Below are positions 27,464 to 56,969 of a DNA stretch of 64,000 nucleotides, piece after piece. The notes under the pieces were generated by a model. That model did not search any database and was not told the DNA's origin. It saw only the letters and a program-made list of their open reading frames with translations. Within the stretch, counting starts at the first letter, position 1, and every line of letters begins with the position of its first letter. The stretch is from Congeria kusceri (taxonomy: Eukaryota > Mollusca > Bivalvia > Myida > Dreissenidae), in NCBI GenBank assembly GCA_027627225.1, contig JAPFQT010000038.1, forward strand, positions 1,426,001 through 1,490,000, in the 5' to 3' direction. Position numbers and translations under genes: made by a program.

Positions 27464-27483
27464 TTGTGTGTGTGTGTGTGTGT

Positions 27484-27574
<91 letters not shown>

Positions 27575-27588: not shown

Positions 27589-27846
27589 GTTGCACGTACG
27601 GGACACTGAGGCCGTCAATGGGTATGCACAGCAACGAGTGGGGTCTCAGTGGCAGAGTGAGGACGTCCTCACTTGTCAAAAGTATAAATACCCTTTATTC
27701 TTCATAATTTTGCATGAAACACAAAATAAAATTGAAAAAATAGGGTATCCCCATTCGTCGTTAACCTCGGGTTATTTTTTTCACCAGTGTGTCGTTTTCT
27801 TTTTTTGTCGCTTTTTTTCCTATGAAGCGACACACTTAAAATCCAA

Positions 27847-27883
27847 TGCGCATGCGCGAACATTTTTCCGCTCAGTGACGTCA
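27847..27883 (+). promoter_or_regulatory. Candidate promoter: NRF1-like and CRE sites
   Basis: TGCGCATGCGCG at 27847-27858 is a near-perfect NRF1-type palindrome. TGACGTCA at 27876-27883 is a full CRE/ATF site. They sit 20-57 bases upstream of an ATG (27904) that opens a short exon with a good splice donor. There is no TATA box. Both motifs are typical of TATA-less housekeeping promoters in animals. I infer that this is the promoter of the SET/BRCT gene. Confidence 0.55.
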
Positions 27884-27903
27884 TTGTCTGTTTTGTGAAC
27901 AAA

Positions 27904-27931
27904 ATGGAAGTGGAGTTATTTCTTATCGATG
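27904..27931 (+). CDS. Candidate first coding exon (MEVELFLID)
   Basis: ATG at 27904 opens nine codons plus one base and stops at the donor G|GTAAGT (27932). The phase is 1. Joining to the exon at 33020 in this phase reads AEDKPKDFIET, acidic and natural for a linker before a KMT5A-type SET domain. The upstream NRF1 and CRE sites support a transcription start here. Confidence 0.5.
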
Positions 27932-30900
27932 GTAAGTTACGATGGTCGACCTTCGGCCTGGCAACATAACTGTGTGGGGATTGGTTATGAAATCCTTTCT
28001 ACGGCCATTTCCCCCTACTTCTGATTCAAGTAGGGCAGTTGTCAGTTACTGGCATAAGCATGTGCACATAGTAATTTTTCAAGATGGCGGCATGGTATAC
28101 ATCGACAAACAGAATAATTTAATGAAGAATACTAATAAACATAATTTCTAGTCGTAATGTTCGTAAAAAGGTTCAATGGTTAGCATACTTTTGAAAGAAA
28201 TATTTTATTTGTACCTTATGGCTCCAAATATATACTTAAGGTTAAGTACCGCGAGAATACAGATGAACACGTACTGGTAAACCAGCTAACCCAGGAAAAC
28301 TGTTAGTTGGTTAACTGACGGCGGTGATATAACTGAAATACTGTGGAAAACAGTGAAAAATCCAATTAAACAAACAAAACTAAACCTGTTCACTGAAGCC
28401 AACAATGTATCAAATGTGAAACACAGTGGTTAGGTTAATTTTGAAATTTATGAATTAATTCAGTGCACATATTTCATCATATTGACATACAGGTACATCG
28501 AATTGAAATTGTCAAATACATCAAATAATACCAATAATTATAAAAGTCTATAATAGGAATACAATTTAGGCCGCCATTCAGTGTTTTCATCAAGGAAAAA
28601 ATGTGAATACAAGTGAATGCAATATTGATCTGTGGGGACAAAATAGAATATTTGAGTTGTCTAGTAGAAGTCCATACATGTAATTCCTATTTTCAGATTG
28701 ACATAGAATAAATGGCAGACCGCTTATGTGGAATGACGGACCTCACACGCGGAAAACAAGCAGTAAGTACTTATTTAATTTTTTTCCCAATAGCAATGGA
28801 CTTGATTTTTTTATGTTTTGTAAAAAATTAGGTGGGCAGTAGATATAAATGTATTAAAATAAATGTTTTTATTTTCTGCACACTAAAATTATTAAATTGA
28901 CAAAAAAACTAGCCTATAATTAAAAAAACAACAACAAACAAACAACTGAAGACAAGTCAAGGCTTAAACAAGGTATTTAAATTAAGACAAGCTAGTTATA
29001 CCCCCGCAAACTAAGTTTGTAAGGGGATATATAGGAGTCACGCTGTCGGATGGTTTGTCGGTCTGTCTGCATACAATGTGATAAGTTTGTGGAGCGAAAT
29101 TCGTCAACATTTCTTAAGCAATTGATTTAAAACTTGAAATATGTCGTCACCAGGCCCTGGTAGCATTCGGTTTTGACGCAAGATATATACTGGGACGAGT
29201 AATTTTCCTAAGGAAGGAGTCCTGGACTCCATGTTCTGAAATTCTAGCGAGAACTCAGATGAAAGACGTCTATTTATTTATTTTCTTGTCTTATTTAATA
29301 AATTATTGGTGTTATGATTTAAGTTACATGTTTCATTTCAGCTGTATTTAAAATCTTGAAAAAAGTAAATAGTTTTGAGTTATTGTGATTACTATACTGA
29401 CTAATGACTAAAGTTAAGGTGAAATAAAAAATCGAGATCGGGACGTATGGCATGTATGATAAAAGTGTTTTCAATATTATATTTACTAAGGTTCAACTCA
29501 TAGAGCTGGATAGGGAGATGAACTGAAAGTTGAAATATATATATAAAAAAAATATTTTATTTTTTTTTTGCTTTGAAAGCTTCAATTGGGAATTTTAGGC
29601 TGTCATTTGGGAAAAATATATACTTTTTGAGATTGGGAATGGGGCCGAATTTCGGCCCCAAATTTGACGCTGTTGGGATACAACGTTTTTCCTCACCACT
29701 TTGGGAATGGTAACGGTACTGGTCAAATTGGGTAAATTAGCGTCGTTTTCAGCTCAATTGGGAATTTTATCTTATTCTTTAAAAGCTATCAAGAGGATGT
29801 CAAACCAATAAGTTAAATTCTGACAGGGCTTTTTTTATCCTACAGCTGTAACCTTATACAGGCTACATCCCTCAAAAATTTGCTTTAAATTCATGCAGTT
29901 TTCCCCCAAAATGAAACTTGTACCTGGAAATTTCATTCCCCTATGAGTAACATCGCGCGAAAATTATCCCCAAATTTGGTTTTCACGCGCTATTTTTCCC
30001 CCATATTTGAAGGCTAGGGCCCCTTCCCCCGAGCCTTACAAAAAAACCTGTCTGAAAACAACTTGTTCAACTTATTCTTGTACTTGAATTAAGCTCAGAA
30101 AAGCATCTTTTTACAGGAAATTGCTCGTGTTACTTGAGACTTGAATGTGTCTAAGTTTCAGTTTCGTTCCACAAGTTGCATCAGAGACACAGGTTTGCAT
30201 GTTAATTTATTTTAGAATATACATCAATATTGACAATCTCCTTGTCAGGGTTTTTTTCCAACTTAGGGTGAAAAGGGCCGTTCTTTTTTATGGGGAAAAA
30301 ATAGTGAGAAAAACCGGATTTAGGGCAAAATATAAGCGCGTTATTGGCAGTTTGGGGGAAATATAAAAACCTATAACCGTACACACTTAAGTGTTATTGT
30401 TATGTTATTGGAGTATTTAACTGAGTTTGAATTAATATATTTAATATGTTTACCTTTCAATATCCTCCATTTTAACTATCGTTACTATTGTTGCACTCTT
30501 ACGATATTTACAAACGTAGTTGTTTTTAATTGTTTAATATATAGGCAATTTTGGGGGAAAATGGATCGTTTGGGGAAAATTCCAGGGTTCCCTCTGGGCT
30601 TTAAAAAGTTGTCGCCACTTACTTTCGCCAAAATCAAAAAGTTGTTGCCACTTTCGCCAAATTCAAAAAGTTGTCGCCACTTACTTTCGCCAAAATCAAA
30701 AAGTTGTCGCCACTTACTTTCGCCAAAATCAAAAAGTTGTCGCCACTTACTTTCGCCAAAATCAAAAAGTTGTCGCCAAATTTGCATTGTAGAAAATGAA
30801 GACATTAAAAATTCTGCTAATAACAATAATAGCATATAAACAATATAAATACGCGTTATATTATATGAACTACTACATAGTGCCTTGTACAGAACACAGT

Positions 30901-33900
30901 TAAATAAGTTAAGTATTTGTGTACTTCACTCTACAGTAAATCTCACCTTTGGTTTTCATATGCTTAACAATGTTCTCCTTTTTCAATACAGTGCATCCTG
31001 TAGTGAATGAATTGCTCAGTTTTGAGGATATACAGAGTTCACACAGCATAGATTTTGTGTTGGAATCATATTTGAGGAACGGGAAATCTGATTTCCAACT
31101 GTCTTTGAAATTTCTGTTAGCTGGTGAATTTAGAGTTTTATACATTTTTGAAGGAGTCTCAACATCATCTGAATCTAACGTTCGCTTTTTAACAGGCGTT
31201 ATACACTCTGAACTTGCCATTTTGACGAGTGAAACAGAGAATATTATCTCATGTTTATATAGCACTAATCAAGGCAAAATGTTTAATTATTGCCTTTAAA
31301 CACACCGATTATGCTAAAAACAATCCATATTTACCTTTTTGATTGTCATTGTTGTCAACCTAACAGGCTTTAATCTGCTTCCTATACTGTGACAAACACT
31401 TCACACTTCAGCGCAAAGTCGGTACATTTCACAGTTGTCTTATCTCTGAAGCAATAAAACTGACGACCAATTAAGATAACTTGTAACAACACCACCAATA
31501 ATCCCAATTATCACCATAATCTGCCACTTTCCGGCAATCAGCACGCTCCATTGATTTCAGCAGTGTCGCTTACATCACGGAAATCCATTGCACAGCGACT
31601 ACCGTAAAGCGGCTGGTAAACAGAGCCTCTTATGTCATTTTAAGTAAATATTACGCAGAAAAAATGTGGAATTTTGAAAAATCGCCATTTTTGAAAAGTT
31701 GTCGCCACTTACTTTCGCCAAATTCAAAAAGTTGTCGCCAAATTTTTTATTTTGTCGCCATTGGAGACAATGGCGATCGACAGCGGGAACCCTGAATTCA
31801 ATGACATAGGGGAAAAATACGTCAAGGAGAAAGGGCCGATATTCGGTGGGTCTCAAAGAAGGAAAGAAAAACCTGCTTGTTGATCATTAATGAAGCCTTT
31901 AAACTATATAAAATATTGCATCCTGAAGGGTTTTCCGTATTATTAGTTTTATGATTTATTGCCACTCGCAAAAACGCAGTGCAATTCAGTTGGTTCCCAT
32001 TCTCAGATGCCATGTATGTAAGAAACAATGAATTGTAATTGAAACGATTCGATAACAGCGCCACCAAACGCAGTTACTTACCCTAGCGGTGCACAGTAGC
32101 TGATTTGAATTTTGGTAGACGCATGGATAAAACAAAATTTTTAAAAAGCACATCGTCAATCATTAATGGTCCTTTATGAATATGTTTTCTCTGATTTGGG
32201 AAAGTTTTACCTTCAATTTGAGGAAAATAGCCAGAAAATAGGTTTGGGAATGGTATAGAGGAAAAACGCTGGGATGCATAACAATATAAATCCAGGGGTC
32301 CACTCCAGTCAATATTGTTATAGCAGTGTTAACCATACTTGAGGCTTTTACTAAATATTTGATTGATTGGTTACATGTATGTCATGACAGTCTTGACGAG
32401 TGCAAACAGCCTGCGTTTTACGCCACCATGATACTCTTTACTCTTAGACTATAATTATGATTAAAAAAAATATTTTTCAGCAATGTTTTAATTAGTTTTG
32501 TTCAAATACTGTTGGTTATCAGGGCTTTTTTTGGCTGATTTTATAGCCATTATTCGGTCATATTCCCAGTGGCAAAAAGTATCTTTTTCCCCAAATCCAT
32601 GCCGAAAATTCCCAATTGAACGTTTGACTTTCAGATGTTTGGAAATAGAGCTGTCAAGTGTAGAAATAAAGCGTTTTGAAGTTGTAATATCCATTTTACC
32701 GATATGTTTATATTAAATTTTTTCTTTTTTATGTAAGTTTTATCAATAATTATTCAAATGTAATAAATCAAACAATAGTACATTTTCCCAATTTAAAATA
32801 AATTGATGCTAAAATTCCCAATTAGACGGGTATAGGTCATATTCCCAAAATGGTGAGAAAAAGCCCTGGTTATGGAATCAATACAATTCATATTGTATCA
32901 AAAGATCAGTTGACAAGAAGCACAAACTGCAGGGCTGCCTTTGTGACATTTATTAAATAAGGTGAACCTATGGTCACACGACAAATGAGTTCAATGTCAG
33001 GCTTGTTGTTTTTTTTCAGCTGAAGACAAGCCTAAAGATTTCATTGAAACAAGTGAGTTGTCATCTGTACCTTTTTTAGCTCACCTCAAGGACTGAGCCT
33101 TTGTGACCATCCCTGCCAAAACTGCATAATGTATGATTACATCCAAAAATCTAACCTACAAATTGTATCTTCATTTTCGCGGGTAACGTCTGGTGTGAAT
33201 GGGGTCTTTTTGGTGTTTTTTGCACTTCTTAATTGACAGCTTTCGTTGAGCAATTTATGCCATGACCTGTTGAGTAATTTGAGACGCTTATTGGCATTTG
33301 AGACAGGCGATCGACGGATTGCGCAATAGTAAAATGGCGGCCATTTTCGGTCCGATTTGCTAGTTTCTAGTCTTGAAATCTTTTTTTCTCCTTTTTGGGG
33401 TAAAAAAATCGGTGCGCGTTATACACGGGTGCGTGTTATACTCGGTAGAATACGGTAACTTACATATATTTGCATTTGAAACTGTTTAGTTAAAGAAACA
33501 TAGTGTAAGATTGATACAAATCATTCAAATAAAAGAAAGGGAACTGAGAAAAAAATTTGAAATGTAAGTTAGAAAACTTCAGCAATGACTGAACTGCCAA
33601 AACTGCATTATAGGTGGTGCTATTCTTTGTGCAGAATCAATACGCAATTCTTTCCTGAGAAGTAGTTGTTTAGAAATGCCATAATGAGCGAAATCATGTA
33701 TATGAGCAATTGACATAGTGTGTTTGGTTTATTTGTTGGAATAATACTAAATATTTTGTACAAGTATGAAATTTTCACTAAACAGACACTTGTCTATTGA
33801 ATTGTTTGTGCCACAATCTGAATCATTTAACACATATCAATCGGTGAATTAATCAATTTTAAACATGAATAGTTTGTTATGCCCCCACAGAGTGGGAGGC

Positions 33901-36900
33901 ATTAAGCATTGCACTTGTCCGTCCATTCGTACGTACGTCAGGAAGCTTGTGTTTTGAACTCCTCTTTAACTACTGGGTGGATCGCGCTCAAACTTTCAAA
34001 GTTGAATGACCTTAATGTGTAGTTGATCGTATAGAAAGGAATTCGGGCTGTACAGATTTTTGGCAGAATTATGGCCCTTTATATAGTTGCCTGAAGCTTG
34101 TGTTTTCAACTCCTCTTTAACTAATGGGTGGATCTTGCTCAAACTGTAGATGATGGTGAATAAAGGAATTGTGGCTGCGACAATTTTTGGCAGAATTATG
34201 GCTGTTTGTCTGTTTTTCCACTGTAGCCCCAAAATTTTGTGTTTTCAACTCCTCTTAAAATATTGGGTGGATCTCGCTCAAACTTTCACAGTTGAATGAC
34301 CTTAATGAGTAGATGATCATAAAGAAACTGTTTTGGCTGAGACGAGTTTTGTCAGAATTATGGCCCTTTGCCTGTTTTTCCACTATAGAATATATAGTGC
34401 CAATTATTTTTTTTTAACTGCTCTTTGCATCTCGCTGAATCTTTAACAGTTGAATGACCTAAAAGCGTAGATGATCGTAAAGAATGGAAAAGTGACTGCG
34501 ACCAGTTTTGGCTGAATTTCGGCCCTTTGTCTTATTGTCTACTATTGAATATACATGTATAGTGGATTTGTCTGTGTCCAAACATGTGTTGTGGGGCATT
34601 AGTGTTTGTGACACATTTCTAGTTTGTATAACTTTTTAAAACAAGTACCTGATATTCAAAGCACTTGTTTGTATTTAGCGGAGACAATCTCCATCATCAT
34701 GCGCCAAGTTTTGGTGCAAGGCTGGGGTGGACCAAGAGGGCCTTCAAAAAAAAATAGTTTCCAAACATATTGGTATGTATGGTTTTCTTTTGAATTATAA
34801 GTAAAAATAAATAATTTTAAACTGCCACTCAAATACTTAACAGTTACGGTTACTCCAGTACCTTATGCCCCCACTTCAGAGATTTGCCCTCCCATCTGTT
34901 TTTGTGACATGTTTGGTATCTCTTATTTGACTGTGTCATGCTTTTAAAGATGCTTGGATGTAATTTGGTGTACTTGTAAAAGGCAATTTGACAATTATGC
35001 ATGACATTTTGTTTTTCACTGAAGGTCAAAGGTCATGTCTCTCAAAGAAAATGAAACAAATCTTAATATTGTAATAACTAAAAAAGTACACAAGGCTTTA
35101 TCGTGAAATTTGGTATACACATTGGGCTATATGTTTACTATATGTTCGTCTGTTCATCTATCTTTTGGTTGGTCTGCAACAAATGAAAAAACTTGTGATA
35201 ATGATCATGAAACTTGGTATCACGCATGAACCTAAACTTTTCCAGAGGTCAATTGTCAGATGACTTTTACTTAAAATAGAATTACGCTAACTACTGCAAT
35301 AACTGTAAAAGTACATATAAAGATATAATTGTGAAAACATTGTATGAACATGGAGAGTAACGATATTGTGAGAATGTTTAAAAAATCTTGATACTGCAGG
35401 TTTTTTTCTAAGGCTCGGGGGAAGGGGCCCTAGCCTTCAAATATGGGGGGAAAAAGCGCGTGAAAACCAAATTTGGGGATAATTTTCGTGCGCTGTTACT
35501 CATAGGGGAATGAAATTTCCAGGTATAAGTTTCATTTTTGGGGAAAACTGCATGAATTTAAAGCAAATTTCTGAGGGAATGTAGCCTGTATAAGGCTACA
35601 GCTATAGAATAAAAAAAAGCCCTGTACTGATGATTTGTCAAACAAGAACAGTGCCCGATGCGCGCACATCGCGTTAGATGATTTATGCATGTTCAATGGG
35701 AATACCCCTGTCTCGATTGGACGTCAAATAGAGGCATACCCCACAATTCACTTTATGACGTCACGCACATGGTGCACCTGTATGTTTACTTCCTGAAAAT
35801 GGAGAAGTTTGTGTTCATCAGCATGAAATTCTTAAACACATTAATCGTCAGTATTGGCCAGAAATTTAGAGTTTTTGTTAGTACATGTACTGTACTGATC
35901 ACTGACTAAAGTAAAGGTGAAATGAAAGTTCATTTGGAATGTCCCGACAATTTTAATGGATTTGGACTTGAAAAATTATGGCATGTATGCTCCTTGCAAT
36001 ACTGTCAAAGTCTTGTATTTATGTGGTTTTCATTTCTCTTAGGTTACGGAGTTTTTACAAAAAAAACATTTGCAAAAGGAGAGTTCCTCCTTGAATACAC
36101 TGGGGATCGAATTGACAAGGATGAAGCAAACCGCCTTGAAGAAAACGGAAACAATTTTTTGTTTGGCTTCATGTTTCATGGGAAAATGCTATGGTAAGTG
36201 CAAATGAAAGGGGAGTTTAAATGTTCATTATAATGAGGGCTGTTCCAGGAAAAAATATGATGGCAGGAAGGAACGCCTGTTCAAAAATGGATTACCACCA
36301 ACACAATTATAATTTCCGATACTGATTCCAAAGGTCAACATTACCAACATTACCAATCGGCCAATCAGAAAGTGTACGCAAATGAGCGAGTTGATCATGC
36401 TCTTTCATTGTCTAATTGCATATTCAGATCATGTCGAGCGGATCTGTGGTCTAGTGGAAACACTGGTACCAGAACTCGGGTGGCAGGTTTGATCCTCCGC
36501 TCAACCCTAACCTACTTAAGACGTTAAACCGAGGTGCAGTGTACTAGGTGCTTCACACCGGGCGCTAAAAGACTCAGGGTCATCTCTGGAATGGGGCGTC
36601 TTCTGTATCCACAGTATTCCCCTTACCCAACTAACAAGTCTTCTGGGGGCGATGGCCATATGGGAAATTCCCAGTGCACTTGATAAAAATCTAATACACA
36701 CACAGATCGTGTCAAAAATTACACTTTATTGATGTTAAAATATATAACTACTAATGTGTATCAATAGAGGAGGTATGCAATATGATAACTAGTTGTTACA
36801 TGATTTTTTATTTTATTTGGCTGAGGTAACATTTTAATGAAAGTTTGTGGTAGAAAAGTCCTTTTCGAAAGTGAAACTCTTAAAGTTTTTTTTTTAAATC

Positions 36901-42900: not shown

Positions 42901-45900
42901 AATGTCAGTTAATTTGGTGAGTCTTCAGAATTTTCATTTTACTTTTACCAGTTTTTAGTCCCCTAACGGTTTCACCATTGCAGGCATTTCCACAGGACTT
43001 TTAAGCACAGTGGCACCCCTGTGCCTGAATTTCCAAATCAGGGGTACCCCTGTGTCTGAATTTCCAAAGAAGGGTACCCCAGTGCCTGAATTTTTAATTC
43101 AGGAACACCCCTGTACCTAAATTTCCAATTATTATCTGTGTATGTGCTTTTTAGCTCACCTGAGCACAACGTGCTCATTGTGAGCTTTTAGGATCACCTT
43201 TTGTCCGTCGTGAATCGTGCGTCGTGCGTCGTCAACATTTACCTTGTTAACACTCTAGAGGCCACATTTATTGTCCGATCTTCATGAAACTTGGTCAGAA
43301 CATTTGTCCCAATGATGTCTCGGCCGAGTTCGAAACTGGGTCACGTGAGGTCAAAAACTAGGTCACTAGGTCAAATTAAAGAAAAAGCTTGTTAACACTC
43401 TAGAAGTCACATTTTTAGTCCATTCTTCATGAAACTTGGTTAGAACATTTGTTCTCATGATGTCTCAGCTGATTTCGAAAATGGTTCCGGTCTGTTGAAA
43501 AACATGGCCGCCAGGGGGCGGGGCAGTTTTCCTTATATGGCTATAGTGAAACCTCGTTAACACTCTATAGGCCACATTTATTGTCCAATCCTCATGAAAC
43601 TTGGTCAGAACATTTGTCCCACTGAAATCTCGGCCAAGTTCGAAAATGGTTCCGGTCTGTTGAAAAACATTGCCCCCAGGGGGCGGGGCAGTTTTCCTTA
43701 TATGGCTATAGTGAAACCTCGTTAACACTCTATAGGCCACATTTATTGTCTAATCTTCATGAAACTTTGTCAGAACATTTGTCCAAATGAATCTCAGCCA
43801 AATTCGAAAATGGTTCCGGTCTGTTGAAAAACATGGCCGCCAGGGGGCGGGGCAGTTTTCCTTATATGGCTATTGTGAAACCTTGTTAACACTCTATAGG
43901 CCACATTTATTGTCCAATTTTCATGAAACATGGTCAGAACATTTGTTCTAATGATATCTCGGCCAAGTCCGAAAATGGTTCCGGTCTGTTGAAAAACACG
44001 GCCGCCAGGGGGCGGGGCAGTTTTCCTTATATGGCTGTAGTGAAACCTTGTTAACACTCTATAGGCCACATTTGTTGTCCAATCTTCATGGAACTTTTTC
44101 AGAACATTTGTTCCAATGAAATCTCGGTTGAGTTCGAAACTGGGTCACGCGAGGCAAAAACTAGGTCATTAGGTGAAATAAAAAAAAATTGAAGACCCCT
44201 TTGATATATTTTAATGAAGCTTAATATGTAGATACATGTACCTAATATCAAGACCTTGCATTATGTTTGTGTTGGGTGGGGTCAAGGTCACAGTTACTAA
44301 AAGTTTTCGCTCAATAACTTGAAAACCTTTCTAGATATTTTAATGAAACTTCATACATAGATATCAGGTGAGCGACCTAGGGCCATCATGGCCCTCTTGT
44401 TTAGCTCTGGAGTAATGTAGAAATTAATATGGGACACATTCAATTAAGAAAAAAGTAGAACCCATTGCCAACTGTGGGTCTATGCCCCTGTGCCTTAACA
44501 AAATCCTGGGGAAAGGCCTGCATTGGTGACAGCAAGAATGAATAAACTCTAGATTTATATTCACCAGCTTTTTAACTAATGCACATGGGTATTTTAGTGA
44601 AGTTGTGGTTGGTGACATCAGTAACCAGGCTGGCTAGCTCAGTTGGTAGAGGGCTGGACTACAAATCTGAAGATTGCAGGTTTGATCCCTGGCCTGGCCA
44701 CATAACTTGTGTGGTGATTGGTCATGAAGTTCTTTCTACGGCCATTCTCCCCCTACCTCTGATTCAAGGAGGGCAGTTGTCAGTTACTTGCATAAGTATG
44801 TGCGCTTAGTACAGTTAAACCAGCTACCCCTGGAAAAGTGTGAGTTGGTTAGCTGACCACCATGATGTGACTGAAATACTGTTGAAACGGCAAAAAATTC
44901 AACAAAACAAACAAACAAACAGACAACATAAGAGTTTTGTGATAATCTGTATAATATGGAGACATCTATGTCGTATAGGCACACATCAGTTTTCACTATG
45001 AAATAATTTAAATGAAAATAAATGTTTGCAAAAATAAGTGTATATTAATATATGTGTGTGTGAAATCCTAAGCATATTATTATCAAATTGTCCTTACATG
45101 AGTATGTTCTGTCAGTGTGCTTCTTATGCTTTATACAAGTATTGAGCAATTTCTTGTATCTATTTTTAAGGGATTTTTCAAGATTTTTCGAACCTGCAAG
45201 CTTGTAACGAGCGCAGAAGAGGCTGATATTCTCGTTCTTCCAGCATGTAAGGCAAATCACAAATACATCATATGTATAAGAAATATAATGGCTATACAGT
45301 TATCAATATATTTATAAATGTTTAATTATAACCAGTGTCATATCCAGTAGGAGTATTATCATGCCTGTTGCTCAATGACATGTAATATAGCAAACTTTCA
45401 TTGCCGGTATTTAACAATTAAAGGGTATCACATTCAACATTTAAACATAATCATGTAGTGTTTTGTCGAAAAATGTTCACAAAAATCGGAAACGTTTAAG
45501 CAGAATTTTAAAGTCACTATCAATGGAATACATTTAAATATGTGATGTTCATTAAATTATTTAACAGTTGAAAAAATTAATTCATTTGAACGTTGTGAGT
45601 CGTTTTCATGATTACATGTATTACTTGCAACATTTTCATCAACAATTTTACTACCAGTTAACCCATTAAGTCTTAAATATAATCTGCAGAAATATATCAT
45701 CTCTACAGTAAATCTGAAACATTCCACATGTGTAGGCATAAGTGTGCAAGAGGAAATTTACAGTTTGTTTTTTTTAATTAATTATTATTACCTCGTAATT
45801 GAAGAGAGAGGGGTATACTGGAGTCACTCTGTCAGTCGGTTTGTTGGTCGATAGGTCAGTCCACATTAAATGTTATAACTTTATGGAGTGAACTTACTCC

Positions 45901-48900
45901 ACATTTATGCGTCATAACCATGAAGTTTGCAAGAAACAACTCATACCCAGTGATCTACATATTACTTTGTTATTTGCCCTTAAGCAAAGACATGGGCAGT
46001 GATCTGTCCGCATACAATGTCACAAGTTGAATAAGCGTTGCAAGGTTACTAGTGACAAATCTATAGATTCCATTAACAAAATTTGACAGGATTAAAATAA
46101 GCTGAAATGCTTATATTTGTACCTTTTATGCATTTGCAATCATACAATCAGTGTTACCCTGGAAATGTTTCATTTAATCCTTTACAAACAAATGTTGACA
46201 TTAGACAGTTTGCCTGTCACATGATGTCAACTTAGCCATTGCTGTGATCTTTGGCAGCACAACAAGATCAGTTCCTTTATTTTTGGTTTTCAGCAGGAAA
46301 TGGACACACTAAACATTCAACAATGAAACTATTCCAGTGCCTTGTTGGCAGAGAGAAATCTATTGTCAGTGCAAAGTGGGTGACAGACTCTATTGCAACA
46401 GGTTGCTTGCAAGAGCTGGTAAGAGTACAATAAAAATAAACTTAATTTTACTGCCCCCCCCCCCCCCACTCGCCACATTATTAAGTGATTGATGAGCTAT
46501 TATAGAGGTACTGTCCTGTGTATTCCATCATATATAATCATGTTATAGCTTGTGTGGAAAATAACTTACGATTTTTTGTGCAAACATGAAACAAAAGTTT
46601 TCAAGCAAGGTTATGGTTGGTTGTAAACCCGCATTTAATTAATTCATGCCCCATAACCAGTGGAAGAATGCAGATGTGATCAGACTAGAAACACAGGACT
46701 GTTTTAATTTATTCAGTCAATATTCAGGCCGGTCAAATGGTTATTATGGTTTTCTTGTTTCTTTATTATTGCACAGGATGAAAGATATGCTGTGAAGAGT
46801 GCAGTAACATATGGCGAGTGGTCTGCGTATGAGAATTATGATCCTTTCGAATTCAAATTCCTTGGAAGTGATTGGATTGAAACTAAAGAAGGTAACTAAT
46901 GGAATTTCAGTTAAAGAATGTCAATTAGCTCATCATTTATACCCCACTTGTTCACACACTGTTCCCACTTGTTCACATACTGTCCTCACTTGTTCACACA
47001 CTGAACCCACTTGTTCGAGCACTGTCCCCACTTGTTCACACACTGAATTCACTTGTTCACACACTGTCCCCACTTGTTCACACACTGTCCCCACTTGTTC
47101 AAAGACTGAACCAACTTGTTCAAACACTGAACCCACTTGTTCACACACTGTCCCCACTTGTTCACATACTGTCCCCACCTGTTAACACACTGAACCCACT
47201 TGTTCAAACACTGTCCCCACTTGTTCACACACTGAACTCAATTGTTAACACACTGAACCCACTTGTTCAAACACTGTCCCCACTTGTTCACACACTGAAC
47301 TCACTTTTTCACACACTGAACCCACTTGCTCACACACTGTCTCCACTTGTTCACATACTGTCTCCACTTGTTCACACACTGAACTCACTTTTTCACACAC
47401 TGAACCCACTTGCTCACACACTGTCTCCACTTGCTCACATACTGTCCTTGCCTGTTCAATTTGTTATTATTATATAACTTATAATATCCTCTAATCAGCT
47501 GTTAGTGTAATGTGATATGCGTTGTGGGGGCATCAGTGTCTGTGACGACACATTAAAAAAGATACCCTGTATATTTAGGAAGGGACACGTTACAACAGAA
47601 TGATTATTGAAATTGAGGGCATCCCTGTTATATATAGTTTTATGTTATTTCAGAGAAATGAATGATAAAATATGAACAGGTATTGAAGTGGAACAACTTT
47701 ATTTTATTATCTTCAGACGATCTCCGATGTCTTTTAACTAGAATTGGTGGTCATGAGGTGTTGACAGCGTCTGTAGACACTATCTTCATTTGCGCTGATG
47801 GAGAACTTCATACATCATGTATATATTTTTCTTACTGTTCAATAGTTCCAATGTAAGAGTTTTTTTTGTCAAAATTTAATTTGAATTTTATCACTTTATC
47901 AGAAAAATATCCATGATTAACGGTCCAATATTCTATACACATGGAAATAGCAATGTGTCCGAAATCATTTTTCTCAAGATATGTATTGAGTGAATTATCC
48001 CTTTGGTCGTTAAAGATTAAGAACACTTGAAACTATATTGCTTACAGTTACCTGGTATTAATCATTCTTTGAACAACTGCTTGCTAACGTAACTATAAAA
48101 AAATAATAATGTGTACTGTGTAAAAATTTATAAATGATCGTTACAATCCACCTTTTATCTCTATAAAAAATTACTGCAATACTCCTGAAACAGTTTGTGC
48201 TGGCAAGCTCTTGTACTATTAGAAACATGGGAAGCTCTTGTACTATCACGAAACATAACAGAAGTGTTCGTTTTGTCCTTTGCATTTGTTCTTACTGGAG
48301 TCAGATGTCTGTTGACAGCTGATGTAAAACAAAACTGTGCACTGATATTACGTTGTGTATGTTTCAGCTCAATGTGTTGATAAAGAGTGGATCTTCCACA
48401 CCATAATCAGTGGAAAGGTCATCAGCCCTCTATCCAAAATATCCGATGACATAGTGAATTGCAGTGATAATGACTCGGACATTGTCGGGTGTGAAGCATT
48501 TTCACCAAGTAAAAAAATATTTGTCCAGACTTCAGGATCTCTGTCTGAAAAAAGAAAGCAAAAGCTCCAAAGTTGTGTCTACTGTCAGGTATTGAATACA
48601 AAAATGTCAAGACATCTTGCGAGTAAACATTCAAATGAATTGGAAGTTGCCAAAATATTAGCATTGCCGAAAGGATCCCAGAAACGAAGGCGAGCTTGGA
48701 TTGAACTTGCAGCAAAAGGGAATTGGGTCCACAACAAAGAAGTTCGTGAAACTGGAAAGGGGTTTATTATTCCAAAATACAGGCCATCCATCAACAATGT
48801 TGAGCGAAAGTATCTTCCTTGTGAGTTCTGTAAATCCGAAATTGTTGCAAGTGATATGTGGAAGCATCACAAGACATGTGTTGTAAGGCCAGCAGGCATT

Positions 48901-51900
48901 CATAGCGACTCACCGATTGCAAATTCTAAATTACTATTGCCTGTTGATTGTTCTCAGGAACTAAACAGAAAAGTTCTTAGCAAAATGCGGGATGACCTCA
49001 TTTCGGTTGTTGTCAGGTCTGATCCACTTATCCTCGAGTTTGGATCAAGAAAATATGAAAAAGTAGGAGATCAAGACCATATGCACCAGCACATCGGTCA
49101 AAGGATGCGTGAATTGGCAAGGATAGTGATATCTATGAAGGATACAAGTAAGAGAATGTTGACTTTGAAAGACTGCTTAATTCCAACACGATGGAAACTT
49201 CTTTTAAATGCTGTAAGATCAGAAGCTGGTTTCGATAGCGAGACCATGCAGTGGTCAAGACCTTCATTTGCTATTAAAGTAGGACATGGCATCAAAAAGT
49301 GTGCTAAAATTGTTAGAAATCAAGCTAACATAATGGAGGATGAAGAATTAAGAGAACGCGCCAACTCTATTATTGAGTTGTATGAAGATGAGTGGGAGGA
49401 GCGCATAGTGTCTCCAGCAAGAGCCTCATTAGCCTCAGTGAAGTATAACACACCGAAACTGTTGCCTCTGGTGGAAGATGTTGTCACCCTTTCTACATAT
49501 CTGAAATTGAGGCAGCCAGGACGTCTCCCAAAAAACCTGAAATGTACACCAAGCTATGCAAAGCAGTGTTGGCACAGGTCATCCTGTTTAACAGAAAAAG
49601 GGCAGGAGAAGCCCAACGACTTAAAGTTGAGGACTTTTTGAGGGCCTCTTTAAACCCAAAAGTGGACGCTGAAGTAAAAAAGTCGCTTACCAATTTCGAA
49701 CAAACATTGTGCGAGACCCACATTCGTGTAGAAACCAGAGGAAAACGTGGACGCAAGGTTGCGGTAATTTTTACTGCGGAAATGAAGAGCCACATTGAAA
49801 TTTTGTTGAAATTAAGAAAGAACTTGGCCATCGAGTCTAAGTATGTGTTTGCCCCTCCCAACACACATATGCCTTACAGGGGATTAAAAACCTTACGGGA
49901 AGTATCATTGGAAGCAGGATTGAAGTATCCAGAAAGAATAACGTCAACTAACCTAAGAAAACAGTTGGGGACGATGTGTCAGCTGTTGGGCTTAACAGAA
50001 AATGAACAAGATGTTTTAGCCAAGTTCATGGGACATGACATTCGAGTACACCGTGAATTTTACAGACTTCCCCAGAGCACGATAGAAATAGCAAAAGTGA
50101 CAAAAGTGCTACACTTGCTTAATGCAGGAAAAATATCCGACCTGGAGGGGAAAGACCTCAACCATATTGATCTTGATGTTGGTAAGTCACTCTTTACTAA
50201 CCTTTGATGGTAAGATATTGTTAAGAGGTTTAACAAAATGGTTTAAACATTGTTATCAACAAGAATTTAAGTTACAATCCTTTTAAAATATTAAACCACA
50301 TTGTTGCCAATTATGAAAATTAAATGGAAGATGGCAGAGTATATTGGTTTGCTTATTTTGGTGTTTTGTTTCTGCTTTTTTTTTGCAATTTAAACCCTTT
50401 GATGCAGGTCATACTGACATTGTTTGGCTGCAAAGCAATACGAGAGTGTGCATGAACATGCTATAAATTTGATTGGATTAATGCATAAAATATATGGCTA
50501 TTATGTTTATGGAAAGCTAGTATAAGTATGTCCTTGTGCAACTCATTCATGCCAATTATCTGTTTACAGAACTAGAAGACAGTTCTGGTGATGAATCTTT
50601 AGACGAGGAAATAAGTGTGCATCTGGAGGGTAATTAAAATCCATACCTTTATTGATAAAAATAATACAGCTGAACCGAAGGTTTTTTCCTAGTAAAGTTA
50701 ATATGTTGTTGCACTTCATTAGTTTTATGTATGTGTATGGCCTGGTACATCACAATAATGTTTGAATTAACAAATTTTAGATCTGACGAATACCTCTGTC
50801 GACAAAGGCGAATCTTCAAAAGATTTCATTACGTCAAGGAAACAAAGTATGTAAACCCCTTTATTATTTTTCTAGAGAATTGTGACAACAAACAGAAACC
50901 CTACTAAAAAAAATTCTGTCTGTAACCACTATAGCTATTGAAACTTGACACAATGTATTCAGTTTCACAATAGAATAGAACGATTGATACAATTTGGGTA
51001 ACAGTACATGAACACATTATTTAATTAGCATTTAATTGATTACTGACCTATCAACATATTCAACTGAAACTCCACACATATCTTTGGGGTCATTATGTTA
51101 CCTTATAGAGTTCATATGTATTGTGTAATGCTGGCAAACCCACTGTCCTGCGACAGCTCTTGATACAATTCTACCACCATTAACCAATTTTGTATTTCCC
51201 TATGGTTGCTTAATAAATACTTGTTTTCAATACAGAATGGGTCTCCATGCAAAATGAAGAAAATGAGGATGGTGATAGTGGTAGCGATAGCGATGCAGAA
51301 TGGTGTCCACCCCGTAAGAAACTATGTAAGGAATATTTATCCTGATTTGATTTTCTATTTGTCCTCATTACAGTTTTCCATTGTTTTGTTTGGAAATTCT
51401 TCATAAACATATCTGTAAAGTTATATTGTATTTGAATTAACCTTTTATGCCGCCCTTTGCAGTTGCACTTTCCTAGGAAAAGTGTTAGTAGGTTAACTGA
51501 CCTCTGTTATGTGACTGAAATACTGTTGAATATGGCATAAAATCCAGGGAGAATAAATTTGTTCAGCTGATATTATTGTTTAATTATGTAATTTGTCTTT
51601 TCTATTCCACTCGACCAAGTATTGGCGTCCAATCAGGTTAAAGGGTGTTTCTCAGGAATGACTCGAGTGATTGCATTCAAACCTAAAACTTTTAGTCTTA
51701 ATTTTAAAATTAACCTAAAGGTTTGGTTACTTCAATTTGAAATGTGTCTTTATGACCTTTGACACTTGAAAATTTCAAATTTCATAAACTTGAGTGACAG
51801 AGTCAATTTTTATTTCCATTATCTAACTCGACAATGAGTATTCATACATAGTTACCCTAAACCAATTTAATATGTATTGCATAGTATGAGGTTATTGTTC

Positions 51901-52575
51901 AAAGATCAAGGTAACAAGTACTGAAACAAACAAGTTTAGCTCAATAACTTAAAAACGAAATTATTGAAGGATACAGTAAAGTTAGATAGCAAAGGGATAG
52001 AGATTGTGTGATGGGTCAACATCACTGTTAATCACTGGTAATTAAAAAAAAACAACTTTCCACTCAATAACTGGATATTTAAAAAAAAAGGCAATCTTAC
52101 AAGCACAAGCAAATTCAAATGTGCTGTTTGACAGCTGTTGATTGGGTAATTAAAAAGGTATGAAAAAGTCAGCTGTTGCCACTGAAAGTACATTTAAAAT
52201 ACTAAGAACGCCTTGTCTATATATTTATTTCCCATTCAGTTCGATTGAATGGTGATGCATGTTTTAAACGATGTTTCGTTAGTATAATTTAAATATATAT
52301 TGATGTTAATTTTATTGATGTTAATTTTAGGCAAAAACTTCCCAAAGAAAGGGCTAAGAACCCCGTGGAGAGAGGAGGAGAAAAATTGTGTGAAAAATGA
52401 ATTACGTAAATGTTTAAATTTGGGAACATTGCCCTCCAAGTCTGAATGTGAACAAGTAATAAAGAAGAATCAATGTTTAAAGAACAGAACGTGGACAATG
52501 GTAAAAGGATTTGTTAGAACAACATTGAATAGAAGGAAAGGAATGTCTGTCCATACCTCCTGTCCGATTTTTTAG
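27904..52575 (+). CDS. SET-BRCT-tyrosine recombinase-Myb fusion gene (spliced, about 22 exons)
   Basis: This entry is the whole predicted gene. Coding exons I support are 36043-36193, 37595-37805, 38155-38176, 39818-39895, 40016-40126, 40246-40356, 40476-40637, 40757-40924, 41190-41264, 42861-42916, 45171-45246, 46294-46418, 46777-46891, 47717-47818, 48368-50181, 50570-50629, 50781-50846, 51236-51325 and 52331-52575. Likely upstream exons are 27904-27931, 33020-33052 and one at 34679. All have AG before and GT after, and reading phases agree at every junction from 36043 to the stop. The only break is one frameshift in the large exon at 49530-49536. The product is about 1,300 residues: SET, acidic repeats, two BRCTs, Cys/His motifs, recombinase-like, acidic linker, Myb-like. 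Chromatin and DNA binding in the nucleus is inferred. Whether it is a host gene, a domesticated transposase or a transposon gene is open. Confidence 0.8.
27955..28385 (+). mobile_element. SINE copy, interrupted
   Basis: Bases 27955-28080 (GGCCTGGCAACATAACTGTG, TTTCTACGGCCATTTCCCCC, GGGCAGTTGTCAGTTACT) and 28265-28385 (TGGTAAACCAGCTAACCCAGG, GTTGGTTAACTGAC, CTGAAATACTGT) match the two halves of the SINE at 44626-44930. About 190 bases of unrelated sequence lie between the halves. The tRNA-like head is missing, as is usual for 5'-truncated copies. Confidence 0.75.
28697..28762 (+). CDS. Alternative or non-coding upstream exon
   Basis: TTTTCAG at 28690-28696 is a plausible acceptor and CA|GTAAGT (28763) a strong donor. 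An ATG at 28712 gives 17 codons (MADRLCGMTDLTRGKQA) in phase 0. In that phase the next exon would read LKTSLKISLKQ. The exon cannot follow 27904-27931 in frame because a TGA is created at the junction, so it would be an alternative first exon or 5' UTR. The strong splice sites are the only support. Confidence 0.3.
28763..29823. other. Intron with repeat fragments
   Basis: Fragments include the CCCCCGCAAACTAAGTTTGT element end at 28999-29070 and ACTCCATGTTCTGAAATTCT near 29226. At 29560-29780, TTGGGAATTTTAG, GGGGCCGAATTTCGGCCCC and GTTTTTCCTCACCACTTTGGG resemble the interior and end of the element at 32520-32868. No exon is recognised. Confidence 0.5.
29824..30050 (+). mobile_element. CAGGG-type MITE with 5-bp TSD TCTGA (orientation A)
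   Basis: The element begins CAGGGCTTTTTTTATCC and ends ACAAAAAAACCTG, 227 bp. TCTGA flanks it at 29819-29823 and 30051-30055. The interior, including GGCTAGGGCCCCTTCCCCCG, is repeated in inverse orientation at 35397-35624. It is non-coding. Confidence 0.88.
30583..31794 (-). mobile_element. 1.2-kb nested hAT-like element with 5-bp TSD AATTC
   Basis: The ends are CAGGGTTCCCTCTGGG and, in inverse, CAGGGTTCCCGCTGTC. AATTC flanks the element at 30578-30582 and 31795-31799. Near the left end, a 32-bp unit (AAAAGTTGTCGCCACTTACT plus 12 bases) is repeated about five times at 30603-30778. One and a half copies lie near the right end at 31696-31742. The minus strand carries a zinc-finger exon. CAGGG ends suggest a hAT-type element; the 5-bp duplication is shorter than the usual 8 bp of that superfamily. 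Confidence 0.85.
30945..31220 (-). CDS. Zinc-finger exon of a hAT-type transposase-like gene (N-terminal fragment)
   Basis: From the ATG at 31220 the minus strand reads MASSECITPVKKRTLDSDD, then FKDSWKSDFPFLKYDS, then MLCELC, and then NSFTTGCTVLKKENIVKHMK. The W-x(n)-FPFL...C-x2-C...NSFTTG...H pattern matches the N-terminal zinc finger seen in ZNF862/KIAA1586-like proteins of hAT descent. The exon stops at AAAG|GTGAG (near 30945), a good splice donor. The rest of a transposase is not found between this donor and the left terminus at 30583, so this is either a captured 5' exon or the remnant of an internally deleted element. The frame also stays open beyond the donor to 30909. Confidence 0.6.
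32520..32868 (+). mobile_element. CAGGG-type MITE with 5-bp TSD GTTAT
   Basis: The left end is CAGGGCTTTTTTTGGC and the right end GAGAAAAAGCCCTG, 349 bp. GTTAT flanks it at 32515-32519 and 32869-32873. The interior contains paired TTCCCAATT words. Relatives of the interior lie at about 29560-29780 and 32195-32275. Confidence 0.85.
33020..33052 (+). CDS. Short exon upstream of the SET domain
   Basis: A polypyrimidine tract and CAG (33011-33019) precede 33 bases ending at AA|GTGAGT. In phase 1 it reads (A/T)EDKPKDFIET; in phase 0 it reads LKTSLKISLKQ. The phase-1 reading is acidic and joins exon 27904-27931, so I prefer it. Confidence 0.5.
33075..33470. other. Intron; fragment of a TTTTTAGCTCACCT element
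   Basis: TTTTTTAGCTCACCTCAAGG at about 33074-33092 is the left end of the repeat class seen complete at 43148 and 52568, but the body is not preserved. Nothing else is recognised up to 33870. Confidence 0.4.
33875..34625. mobile_element. Tandem-unit element with ATGCCCCCACA ends
   Basis: The left end TTATGCCCCCACAGAGTGGG is mirrored by TGTTGTGGGGCATTAGTG near 34588. Inside are about four units of roughly 140 bp with AACTCCTCTTTAACTA, GGGTGGATC, GCTCAAACTTTC, GTTGAATGACC and GGCAGAATTATGGCCC. The 3' end of the same family alone is at about 47513-47560. It is non-coding. Confidence 0.7.
34679..34772 (+). CDS. Uncertain exon before the SET domain
   Basis: TTTGTATTTAG precedes an open stretch, and TTG|GTATGT (34773) is a strong donor. 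In phase 0 it reads RRQSPSSCAKFWCKAG...SKHI and ends in phase 1, which fits the SET exon (GYGVF). In the other upstream chain (phase 1) the fitting donor would be G|GTGGAC at 34727, giving ...VLVQGWGYGVF. A KMT5A-like protein would be expected to have something like a (K)GYGVF junction here, so the exact exon remains open. Confidence 0.35.
35397..35624 (-). mobile_element. CAGGG-type MITE with 5-bp TSD TACTG (inverse of 29824-30050)
   Basis: This is the reverse complement of the 29824-30050 element, 228 bp, from CAGGTTTTTTTCTAAGGC to AAAAAAAAGCCCTG. TACTG flanks it at 35392-35396 and 35625-35629. Confidence 0.88.
36043..36193 (+). CDS. SET domain, first half (exon)
   Basis: After CTCTTAG, 151 bases in phase 1 encode GYGVFTKKTFAKGEFLLEYT, then GDRIDKDEANRLEENGNNFL, then FGFMFHGKMLW. 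The pattern G-x-GVF, GEF-x-LEY-x-G and EA, followed by a strand ending FHGKML, is the N-terminal half of a SET domain of the KMT5A/SETD8 kind. That family methylates lysine on histone H4 and other proteins using S-adenosylmethionine. The exon ends TG|GTAAG in phase 2. Confidence 0.88.
36436..36702 (+). mobile_element. tRNA-derived SINE with 11-bp target duplication
   Basis: A tRNA-like head occupies 36436-36502. It has a perfect 7-bp acceptor stem (GAGCGGA and TCCGCTC), an A-box (TGGTCTAGTGG) and a B-box (GGTTTGATCCT). A body with GACGTTAAACCGAGGTGCAG follows, ending in an ACACACA tail. CAGATCATGTC (36425-36435) and CAGATCGTGTC (36703-36713) are the target duplication with one mismatch. The element lies in the intron between the two SET exons. 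Confidence 0.9.
37595..37805 (+). CDS. SET domain, second half (exon)
   Basis: 211 bases, phase 2 in and 0 out. With the previous exon it reads ...KMLWVDASRTTRNHLGGLVN, then DAAEGTFKCNSKMKLMIFNN, then YPRLCLFAARNIASGEELRY, then DYGDDTNNLPWRNK. LFAARNIASGEELRYDYGD is the canonical SET C-terminal motif, including the YDYG tyrosine. The usual NHS catalytic/cofactor motif (RLINHS in KMT5A) is replaced here by VNDAAEG. Methyltransferase activity is therefore doubtful; this is inference from motif loss. Confidence 0.88.
38155..38176 (+). CDS. 22-nt microexon (HNQENEI)
   Basis: TATTTCAG precedes 22 bases and G|GTAATG follows. It enters in phase 0 and leaves in phase 1. This is exactly the change needed to link the SET exon (phase 0 out) to the acidic exons (all phase 1). 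The fit of both splice sites and phase is the evidence; the peptide itself is uninformative. Confidence 0.65.
39818..39895 (+). CDS. Acidic repeat exon 1
   Basis: 78 bases, phase 1-1: a run of Asp, then DPFDVEKERATSMFTNKTI. It is the most diverged 5' member of six related exons, and its flanking introns are unlike those of copies 2-5. Confidence 0.8.
   Translation: MMMMTMMTLSMSRKKGLLPCSQTRQ
40016..40126 (+). CDS. Acidic repeat exon 2
   Basis: 111 bases, phase 1-1: Asp/Gly-rich followed by PPLDFEKDGATSIVPNMTA. The preceding intron ends in GTGTATTTCCTTTTCAG, shared by copies 3-5. Confidence 0.85.
40246..40356 (+). CDS. Acidic repeat exon 3
   Basis: 111 bases, phase 1-1: Asp-rich then PPLDFEKDGATSIVPNKTA. 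Exon and both introns are nearly identical to those of copies 2 and 4, so the duplication is recent. Confidence 0.85.
40476..40637 (+). CDS. Acidic repeat exon 4
   Basis: 162 bases, phase 1-1: an extended Asp tract with His, Ala and Tyr, then PPLDVEKYGATSIIPNKTA. It is nearly identical to copy 5, including the intron that follows. Confidence 0.85.
40757..40924 (+). CDS. Acidic repeat exon 5
   Basis: 168 bases, phase 1-1: a long Asp tract then PPLDVEKYGATSIVPNKTA. Two extra codons compared with copy 4 lie inside the GAT repeat. Confidence 0.85.
41190..41264 (+). CDS. Acidic repeat exon 6
   Basis: 75 bases, phase 1-1: seven Asp then ASNVEKERATSMLANKTA. It resembles copy 1 (VEKERATSM) more than copies 2-5, as expected if copies 2-5 arose by later internal duplication. 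Confidence 0.82.
41802..42790. mobile_element. Tandem-unit repeat element in intron
   Basis: About six units of roughly 135-155 bp contain CGTGTCCGCTCCATATCTCC, GGATTTTCATGAAACTTGGC, GACAATGTGCAGAAGGCA and GGCTCAAGGTCAAGGTCAT. The left end CGTCGCAAAGCGGGAGGGGT is followed by a TTGTCCGTCCATCCGTC lead-in typical of these bivalve elements. I could not define the right end with certainty. Confidence 0.65.
42861..42916 (+). CDS. First BRCT domain, exon a
   Basis: 56 bases, phase 1 in, 0 out: YAGKCVINILFSGMSVNL. The LFSGM core followed by a helix in the next exon starts a BRCT fold. Acceptor TTTTTCAG and donor TTG|GTGAGT are both good. Confidence 0.75.
43014..43130. repeat. About 31-bp minisatellite, four units
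   Basis: The unit resembles ACCCCTGTGCCTGAATTTCC plus about 11 bases (AAATCAGGGGT). It directly precedes the TTTTTAGCTCACC element in the intron. Confidence 0.8.
43148..44402. mobile_element. TTTTTAGCTCACC-type element with about 175-bp tandem units
   Basis: The left end is TTTTTAGCTCACCTGAGCAC and the right end CAGGTGAGCGACCTAGGGCC followed by ATCATGGCCCTCTTGT. Inside, units of about 175 bp carry GTTAACACTCTATAGGCCAC, CATGAAACTTGGTCAGAACA, TTCGAAAATGGTTCCGGTCT and CCAGGGGGCGGGGCAGTTTT. The 91-codon minus-strand frames at 43465-43740 and 43794-44069 are two units read through and are not genes. Confidence 0.85.
44626..44930 (+). mobile_element. tRNA-derived SINE, full-length copy
   Basis: The tRNA-like head has an A-box (TAGCTCAGTTGG) and B-box (GGTTTGATCCC) at 44634-44690. 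The body contains CATAACTTGTGTGGTGATTG, TTTCTACGGCCATTCTCCCC and GAGTTGGTTAGCTGACC, followed by an A/C-rich tail of AAAC repeats. Partial copies lie at 27955-28385 and 51462-51548. It is not a working tRNA gene: the acceptor stem is poorly paired and the body is SINE-like. Confidence 0.85.
45171..45246 (+). CDS. First BRCT domain, exon b
   Basis: 76 bases, phase 0-1: GFFKIFRTCKLVTSAEEADI followed by LVLPA. The KLVTSAEEADILVLPA segment matches the second strand region of a BRCT domain. The acceptor TATTTTTAAG is acceptable; the donor is T|GTAAGG. Confidence 0.78.
46294..46418 (+). CDS. First BRCT domain, exon c
   Basis: 125 bases, phase 1-0: GNGHTKHSTMKLFQCLVGRE then KSIVSAKWVTDSIATGCLQE and L. 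IVSAKWVTDSIATGCL is the conserved BRCT segment with the invariant Trp. A second CAG three bases downstream gives a possible one-codon acceptor variant. Confidence 0.85.
46777..46891 (+). CDS. Inter-BRCT linker and start of second BRCT
   Basis: 115 bases, phase 0-1: DERYAVKSAVTYGEWSAYEN then YDPFEFKFLGSDWIETKE. The first half resembles the inter-BRCT linker that follows the Trp helix. FKFLGSDW starts the second domain. Confidence 0.8.
46943..47455. repeat. 21-bp intronic minisatellite
   Basis: The unit CACTTGTTCACACACTGTCC plus C is repeated about 24 times, with ACTGAAC and ACTGTCC variants. It begins about 50 bases after exon 46777-46891. Because 21 is divisible by 3 it gives spurious TCSHTVP-type and CEQVGTV-type frames on the two strands. 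A degraded relative lies at about 56970-57130. Confidence 0.95.
47717..47818 (+). CDS. Second BRCT domain, middle exon
   Basis: 102 bases, phase 1-1: DDLRCLLTRIGGHEVLTASV then DTIFICADGELHTS. The next exon completes it with QCVDKEWIFHTIISGKVI, which has the BRCT Trp motif. The donor AT|GTATAT is weak, but it is the only one that keeps the frame; GTAAGA at 47853 does not. Confidence 0.78.
48368..50181 (+). CDS. Large exon: BRCT end, zinc fingers, tyrosine-recombinase-like domain (frame break)
   Basis: The exon starts after GTTTCAG with QCVDKEWIFHTIISGKVI, the end of the second BRCT. A C2H2-like finger follows (CVYCQ...HLASKH), then CEFCKSEIVASDMWKHHKTC, a C2HC-like motif. The second half resembles a tyrosine recombinase: KAVLAQVILFNRKRAGE holds the first Arg (box I), STNLRKQLG the second Arg in place of HxxR, and FMGHDIRVHREFYR the GH motif and candidate Tyr nucleophile. 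A -1 shift is needed between codon 49528 and ATG 49542. It falls on AAAAAAC at 49530-49536, so either a base is missing in the A-run or ribosomes shift there. The exon ends G|GTAAGT in phase 1. Recombinase activity is inferred from motifs alone. Confidence 0.82.
50570..50629 (+). CDS. Acidic linker exon a
   Basis: 60 bases, phase 1-1: ELEDSSGDESLDEEISVHLE. It links the recombinase-like domain to the C-terminus. Acceptor TGTTTACAG, donor G|GTAATT. Confidence 0.75.
50781..50846 (+). CDS. Linker exon b
   Basis: 66 bases, phase 1-1: DLTNTSVDKGESSKDFITSR plus KQ. Acceptor AAATTTTAG, donor A|GTATGT. It is low complexity and polar, with no domain. Confidence 0.72.
51020..51170. repeat. Fragment of the 13-kb tandem-unit family
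   Basis: TATTCAACTGAAACTCCACAC, TTTGGGGTCATTATGTTACC and CTGTCCTGCGACAGCTCTTG match parts of the units and the right flank of the element at 13060-14745. Confidence 0.65.
51236..51325 (+). CDS. Acidic linker exon c
   Basis: 90 bases, phase 1-1: KWVSMQNEENEDGDSGSDSD then AEWCPPRKKL. It ends in a basic patch (PRKKL) that could act as a nuclear localisation signal; this is inference. Confidence 0.78.
51462..51548 (+). mobile_element. 3' fragment of the 44626-type SINE
   Basis: GGAAAAGTGTTAGTAGGTTAACTGACC and ACTGAAATACTGTTGAA match the end of the SINE at 44834-44890. The head and body are absent. Confidence 0.65.
51549..52330. other. Intron; no feature recognised
   Basis: AT-rich intron sequence with diverged repeat phrases (CTTTATGACCTTTGACACTTG, CTCAATAACTTAAAAACG) that resemble other bivalve tandem-unit elements. 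No boundary can be defined. Confidence 0.4.
52331..52575 (+). CDS. Last exon: Myb/SANT-like C-terminal domain, stop in a repeat
   Basis: Acceptor TTAATTTTAG; phase 1 in, forming TGC (Cys) at the junction. It reads CKNFPKKGLRTPWREEEKNC, then VKNELRKCLNLGTLPSKSEC, then EQVIKKNQCLKNRTWTMVKG, then FVRTTLNRRKGM. TPWREEE...L..C.......LKNRTWTMVKGFVRTTL resembles a Myb/SANT-type helix-turn-helix with spaced aromatic residues. The coding sequence ends SVHTSCPIF followed by TAG at 52573-52575, which belongs to the opening TTTTTAGCTCACC of the next repeat. Confidence 0.85.
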
Positions 52576-56960: not shown

Positions 56961-56969
56961 TCGACTGTC

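Follow-up and report, generated by a model that had tools for sequence, protein, structure and literature searches.

At a probability that we place near 0.85, the 64,000-base window analyzed here (forward strand of contig JAPFQT010000038.1 of the bivalve Congeria kusceri, positions 1,426,001 to 1,490,000) contains a broken copy of a tyrosine-recombinase DNA transposon, 36.5 kb long and recently mobile, whose sole recognised gene encodes a multidomain protein with a SET domain, an acidic linker, two probable BRCT domains, zinc fingers, a recombinase, and a C-terminal module. An initial annotation, made from the letters of the window, described this gene and proposed either a domesticated recombinase or a transposon that had taken up chromatin modules. 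The gene sits inside a 36.5-kb element that was absent from that account. Copies of the element, its ends, its tandem units, its target tracts, and its domain order were all observed in the genome assembly, and modelling gives the recombinase its fold. Feature coordinates are collected in Table 1.

The window copy comprises 36,533 bases, the last 120 of which lie beyond the window end. Window positions 27550-64000 align over their full length to tandem units on contigs C17 and C2, with insertions and deletions in repeat stretches. Both ends are sharp, at 27588 on the left and 64120 on the right, TG repeats adjoin each of them, and the next copy of the element starts just beyond 64120. For 10 further copies, each end was sampled as a 601-base snippet. 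The end motif is present in 6/10 left and 9/10 right snippets, TG-type tracts adjoin all 15 of these ends, and the 15 flanks share no mutual similarity at E 1e-5.

Copy number was estimated from a recombinase search of the 1.55-Gb genome in which 150 of 782 candidates were scored, so that all copy counts are lower bounds. The same family is represented by 73 recombinase loci (at least 88% identity, plus one decayed locus); the second pieces of two split loci and four BRCT matches without a family recombinase were left out of locus pairing. Eleven pairs of neighbouring loci stand in tandem at a spacing of 36.3-41.3 kb, and most family loci are scattered across many contigs. A SET exon lies upstream on the same strand in 72/73 loci, at a median distance of 12.4 kb, and no opposite-strand SET was found within 16 kb of the recombinase at any of the 73. 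SET, BRCT-like, and recombinase exons keep the same order and strand in 69 loci; three of the remaining loci lack a BRCT match, and one is at a contig edge. This conservation, together with the SET-to-recombinase order seen in other species, indicates that the fusion order goes beyond chance. The proposal of a transposon with chromatin modules is supported by the 73 loci, the tandem units, the unrelated flanks, and ends that are sharp, common to the copies, and set in TG tracts.

Over a length of 6950 bases, no difference separates two of the tandem units on C17, and substitutions between the window and other copies amount to 0.35-0.51% in the right-hand stretches compared. The second SET exon occurs at 75 family loci, and its protein is 100% identical in 59 of them. 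The 622-aa recombinase frame is open in 38/73 loci. Among 18 copies that were top-ranked and not chosen at random (L003-L020), 11 carry this frame, five have stops, and two have a 2-base deletion. The frame break that had been noticed inside the large exon is real: comparison with two other copies reveals 7 bases missing near 49499 relative to an intact copy. An assembly slip in an A run was rejected on this basis. A break shared with the C5 copy was also rejected, as that copy has its own, independent 1-base deletion. Judging from these alignments, the window copy is probably dead, and other copies look intact.

The surroundings of the copies offer some separate observations. On the right flank of the C3 copy (L059), the TG tract that adjoins the right end also contains a diverged sequence resembling the left end of the element, apparently from a member of another family that inserted alongside. 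Measured from the SET exon of the window copy, that of the next tandem copy (G000:C38:1497026) comes 33.4 kb later, not 36.5 kb. This neighbouring copy on C38 seems shorter at the left, and its recombinase falls past the contig end. To the left of the window element, positions 22001-24000 have 50% GC and a strong AT skew (-0.358).

The gene was read as a candidate first exon and, from 36043 onward, three blocks that total 17 exons. The ATG proposed by the initial annotation is present with its GT donor, and upstream of this exon lie GCGCATGCGC at 27848 and TGACGTCA at 27876, both candidate promoter motifs. From the proposed chain of nineteen consecutive exons between 36043 and the stop, these 17 exons are confirmed; the links at 37805-39818 and 41264-45171 were not found by splice scans, which also gave nothing convincing between the first exon and SET (27931-36043). 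The last block, which starts at 45171 and closes with the stop at 52575, has nine exons with matching phases, and with one of them ending at 51325 the frame joins into the last exon. The large exon encodes the recombinase as well as the final part of BRCT-like domain 2, which opens in exon 46777-46891. Across 39946-40988, the acidic exons and their introns are tandemly repeated, with unit number and spacing varying between element copies. A tRNA-like sequence in a gene intron (44628-44700, plus strand; Rfam tRNA 31.2 bits, cut-off 29) is perhaps a tRNA-derived short repeat.

Table 1. Features of the window copy and its gene (window positions).
Feature	Position	Strand	Basis
TG tract, left insertion boundary	27465-27588	none	tandem-repeat scan; left end motif at 27588
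Mobile element, window copy	27588-64000, continues to 64120	+	alignment to tandem units, junctions, length
Candidate first coding exon, ATG and GT donor after 27931	27904-27931	+	sequence inspection
SET domain, first exon	36043-36193	+	Pfam and PDB matches of joined exons
SET domain, second exon	37595-37805	+	Pfam and PDB matches; 75 family loci
Six acidic, mutually similar phase-1 exons	39818-41264	+	phases; repeat-unit number varies between copies
Acidic exons individually	39818-39895, 40016-40126, 40246-40356, 40476-40637, 40757-40924, 41190-41264	+	
BRCT-like domain 1	45171-45246, 46294-46418, 46777-46891	+	Pfam BRCT_2 below cut-off; start not found
BRCT-like domain 2, middle exon	47717-47818	+	aligned by Tegillarca P0011
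Large exon with tyrosine recombinase, preceded by the last part of BRCT-like domain 2 and by two zinc-finger-like motifs	48368-50181	+	
Zinc-finger-like motifs in large exon	~48574-48630, ~48820-48879	+	
Recombinase core-binding and catalytic domains	from ~49018; Tyr 50061-50063	+	
7-base deletion site	49498-49499	+	comparison with two other copies
Short exons, three, acidic or Ser-rich	50570-50629, 50781-50846, 51236-51325	+	phases
Last exon, Myb-like C-terminal module and stop	52331-52575	+	aligned by 63/151 relatives
Right part of element, no recognised protein domain, many short tandem repeats	52576-64000	none	six-frame Pfam scans; tandem-repeat scan

The predicted SET domain is confirmed by Pfam and PDB matches. 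The joined exons (120 aa) score 52.6 bits in Pfam against a cut-off of 22.4, and the closest solved relatives are KMT5A/SETD8 methyltransferases (E 4e-16), which account for all of the best 14 PDB matches. The element SET shares the YxYG motif with these enzymes (YDYG in the window), whereas it has ND for NH and is fused to a recombinase. ND was found in 75/75 relatives scored, namely those in which the pattern located both motifs. Because ND stands for NH, methylation by this SET is uncertain. Between families, the second SET exon shows a dN of 0.25 over 69 codons. Contigs C104, C246, C327, C484, and others hold many near-identical KMT5A-like SET exons (~49% identical, 147-aa frames), which by their sequences look like further repeat families.

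The gene probably encodes two BRCT domains, a claim of the initial annotation that stands in part. Domain 1 resembles Pfam BRCT_2 at 17.5 bits, below the cut-off of 27.3, and its exon recurs in 69/73 loci; domain 2 of the window gave no Pfam match, and BRCT was absent among the matches of a PDB profile search. The BRCT-like region of a Tegillarca relative reaches 17.9 bits against the same cut-off. Outside the Congeria genome, BRCT is matched over most of the domain in Tegillarca P0011, with pLDDT 21-43 in this part of its predicted model, and P0004, P0005, and P0006 match only the last 20-24 residues of the BRCT-like domain. Support for BRCT joined to a recombinase outside this genome is thin. 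Within it, BRCT-like exon matches (53-56%) without a family recombinase occur at G000:C8:44229823, C8:44738722, C2:39186788, and C11:33716700. These are possibly host genes and the source of the domain.

The tyrosine-recombinase-like domain initially proposed models as a Xer/Cre-type tyrosine recombinase, and its motifs agree. The Pfam Phage_integrase match scores 16.9 bits, below the cut-off of 27.1, and the catalytic R, R, and Y are kept among 46 aligned rows. With regard to the Crypton tetrad R-H-R-Y, the H position is mostly T. The Myb-like label of the last exon found no Pfam match at E 0.1; the exon itself is aligned by 63/151 relatives.

Pairing of SET with a recombinase recurs in other families of the genome. 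A compact family has a recombinase ~43% identical and a second SET exon 64-71% identical to those of the element, and in 9/9 listed SET places the recombinase follows SET on one strand. In one copy of it (L062), read whole, the SET intron agrees with that of the element in codon position and phase, and BRCT gave no match. In another family, at 61-63% identity, 5/5 copies carry the BRCT exon 3.3-3.95 kb ahead of the recombinase, and the family has no place among the 150 best SET matches scored. In a further family, found at two places on C14, SET and recombinase lie on one strand and are not called one gene because they stand ~24 kb apart.

In other species, the fusion is found in single annotated proteins. 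The nearest named relatives come from Tegillarca, Haliotis, and Crassostrea, which points to a mollusc host. Pipefish P0032 contains SET, zinc fingers, recombinase, and the C-terminal module, and Crassostrea virginica P0033 has the same arrangement, although its SET is represented by the last part only. With P0032 as query, 195 proteins were retrieved, the best 120 of which are mainly teleost by name and include one frog (P0119). Counts of arrangements refer to 151 relatives that form a biased set and no census, as 119 came from the SET-bearing query through the best 120 of 195. SET, zinc fingers (ZF), tyrosine recombinase (YR), and C-terminal module occur together in 59, SET-ZF-YR in 46, ZF-YR in 31, BRCT2-ZF-YR in three, BRCT2-ZF in one, and other arrangements in 11. 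In a second set limited to shorter proteins, SET is present in 0/30. The SET-recombinase proteins of fishes, frog, and oyster are uncharacterized and, in the oyster and many fishes, annotated without a name. They resemble the Congeria gene in the order of SET, zinc fingers, and recombinase, and 59/151 also in the C-terminal module, but show no BRCT-like match, and several carry other extra Pfam domains. The initial annotation had considered that the domain order might exist only in this assembly. For SET and recombinase this fails, since oyster and fish proteins carry both; for BRCT and recombinase, the order elsewhere is limited to P0011 and the three partial matches.

Pfam scans in six frames took in 27588-36042 and 52576-64000; on the minus strand they also took in 36043-44300, not 44301-52575. 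No polymerase, capsid, reverse transcriptase, or other transposase was found at E 0.01 in these frames. The only match was a zinc-finger fragment opposite to the gene (zf-C17orf113, 30948-31073, minus strand; 27.7 bits, cut-off 29.5). An inverted repeat pair inside the element (29830-30050 and 35397-35617, 90-97% complementary, ~5.4 kb apart) is perhaps a nested repeat.

A plausible route of transposition can be outlined. The zinc fingers and the C-terminal module would recognise the element ends, and the recombinase would cross over between the flanking TG repeats, excising the element as a circle. The joined ends would then form imperfect inverted arms around TG repeats. The circle could enter another TG tract, or the tract adjoining a resident copy, and entry beside a resident copy would lead to tandem arrays. 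Since phosphoproteins of the damage response are common binding partners of BRCT domains, docking to repair is suggested. As a guess, host proteins of repair or replication may serve as the docking site of the complex through BRCT, and SET may modify chromatin at the donor, the circle, or the target.

A broader interpretation, which we advance tentatively and at somewhat less than even odds, is that of a new superfamily of animal tyrosine-recombinase transposons in molluscs and vertebrates, equipped with a histone-methyltransferase domain of their own, SET, and in some bivalve lineages with BRCT readers, as working parts of transposition. In such a superfamily, SET would mark histones on the element, circle, or target, for example licensing replication or keeping the element quiet between moves. 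Strand exchange would be tied to host repair through the two BRCT domains, such that 36-kb units pile up in tandem at TG tracts.

Several points weigh against a recently mobile transposon with a multidomain protein. No empty site, circle, or insertion polymorphism was seen. The end motif was not found in four left and one right snippets of the 10 sampled copies, five cases that may be misplaced snippets, and on one right flank (L061) the TG stretch is short and interrupted. The match of the inverted arms was reached in 51/5000 shuffles and is weak, only suggestive. The 18 recent copies show no protein-level constraint, in a comparison that says little about selection: their 1816 coding bases vary at 17 sites (14 replacement, 3 silent), and their 1894 noncoding bases vary at 39. 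Active-site residues also depart from expectation: the SET motif has ND where KMT5A has NH, and the His of HxxR is Thr in 35, Ser in two, and Ala in one of 46 rows, eight being gapped.

The mobile element may be real, and yet its SET, BRCT-like, and recombinase exons may belong to separate transcripts, with no five-domain protein produced. The missing RNA, the links not found between exon blocks, and the SET-recombinase link of the compact family, whose linking exons were likewise not read, leave room for this explanation. However, in pipefish one annotated polypeptide extends from SET through to the C-terminal module, as does one with a partial SET in oyster, the same arrangement occurs in 59/151 relatives, the recombinase exon contains the final part of BRCT-like domain 2, and order and strand are conserved in 69/73 loci, so we regard separate transcripts as unlikely. 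Large size and tandem units would also suit an endogenous large DNA virus, or a remnant of one, integrating into microsatellites as crustacean nimaviruses do; according to PMC10871703, endogenous nimaviruses with a recombinase enter telomere-repeat microsatellites. Such an origin is very improbable, given that no viral gene appeared in the Pfam scans described above, no viral collection having been scanned, and that unit length is constant, with one gene, in the copies compared.

The other possibility raised initially, a domesticated host gene with an old recombinase domain, draws on the rich exon structure and the chromatin domains, and other animal genes were domesticated from Crypton recombinases according to PMC3212892. 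It does not fit a high-copy gene whose 73 near-identical loci are both tandem and scattered, share ends, have independent flanks, and mostly keep the catalytic motifs. For the whole family, domestication is refuted by copy number, ends, and flanks, and we give it next to no weight. If a cluster of host genes had simply undergone segmental duplication, tandem units 36-41 kb apart could be explained, but most loci are scattered over contigs, the sampled ends fall at the same base pair beside TG repeats, and the flanks are unrelated. Plain duplication is rejected on the same grounds as domestication and is equally hard to credit. A recently mobile tyrosine-recombinase transposon remains the preferred explanation.

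Cryptons are the nearest known kind, as compared by features and not by a tree, and the element is not filed among them. According to PMC3212892, recombinases of this kind act on two inverted arms around a short crossover, movement of Cryptons as circles is proposed, and the CryptonA and CryptonI elements of animals are without a C-terminal domain or terminal repeats. The likeness lies in a tyrosine-recombinase DNA transposon with no usual long terminal inverted repeats and a proposed circle intermediate. The Congeria element differs in its size of 36.5 kb, its many exons, its C-terminal module, and its SET and BRCT-like domains, as well as in its TG-tract target and the Thr for His in HxxR; a chromatin-writer-like domain in Cryptons is not mentioned in the parts of PMC3212892 consulted. 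Endogenous nimaviruses share recombinase-linked insertion into microsatellites, some multi-exon recombinase genes, and a zinc-binding domain, whereas their target is (TAACC)n or 28S rDNA and they carry viral genes, none of which was found in the scanned frames of the Congeria element (PMC10871703). The Starship giant transposons of fungi are also giant elements moved by a tyrosine recombinase; the Congeria element differs in having no cargo genes in the scanned frames and no Pfam match to the fungal-type captain family at E 0.1 in the gene product. The open PMC literature, judged mostly by titles, opening lines of abstracts, and term counts, yielded no description of a tyrosine recombinase joined to SET or BRCT, with subscription journals, preprints, and Repbase outside this scope.

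If this interpretation is true, a giant, intron-rich, and recently mobile recombinase transposon residing in dinucleotide repeats would bring its own chromatin tools, and perhaps repair tools. It would account for many uncharacterized proteins with KMT5A-like and recombinase-like parts in fish and mollusc annotation, and the entry of a recombinase into TG tracts would become directly testable.
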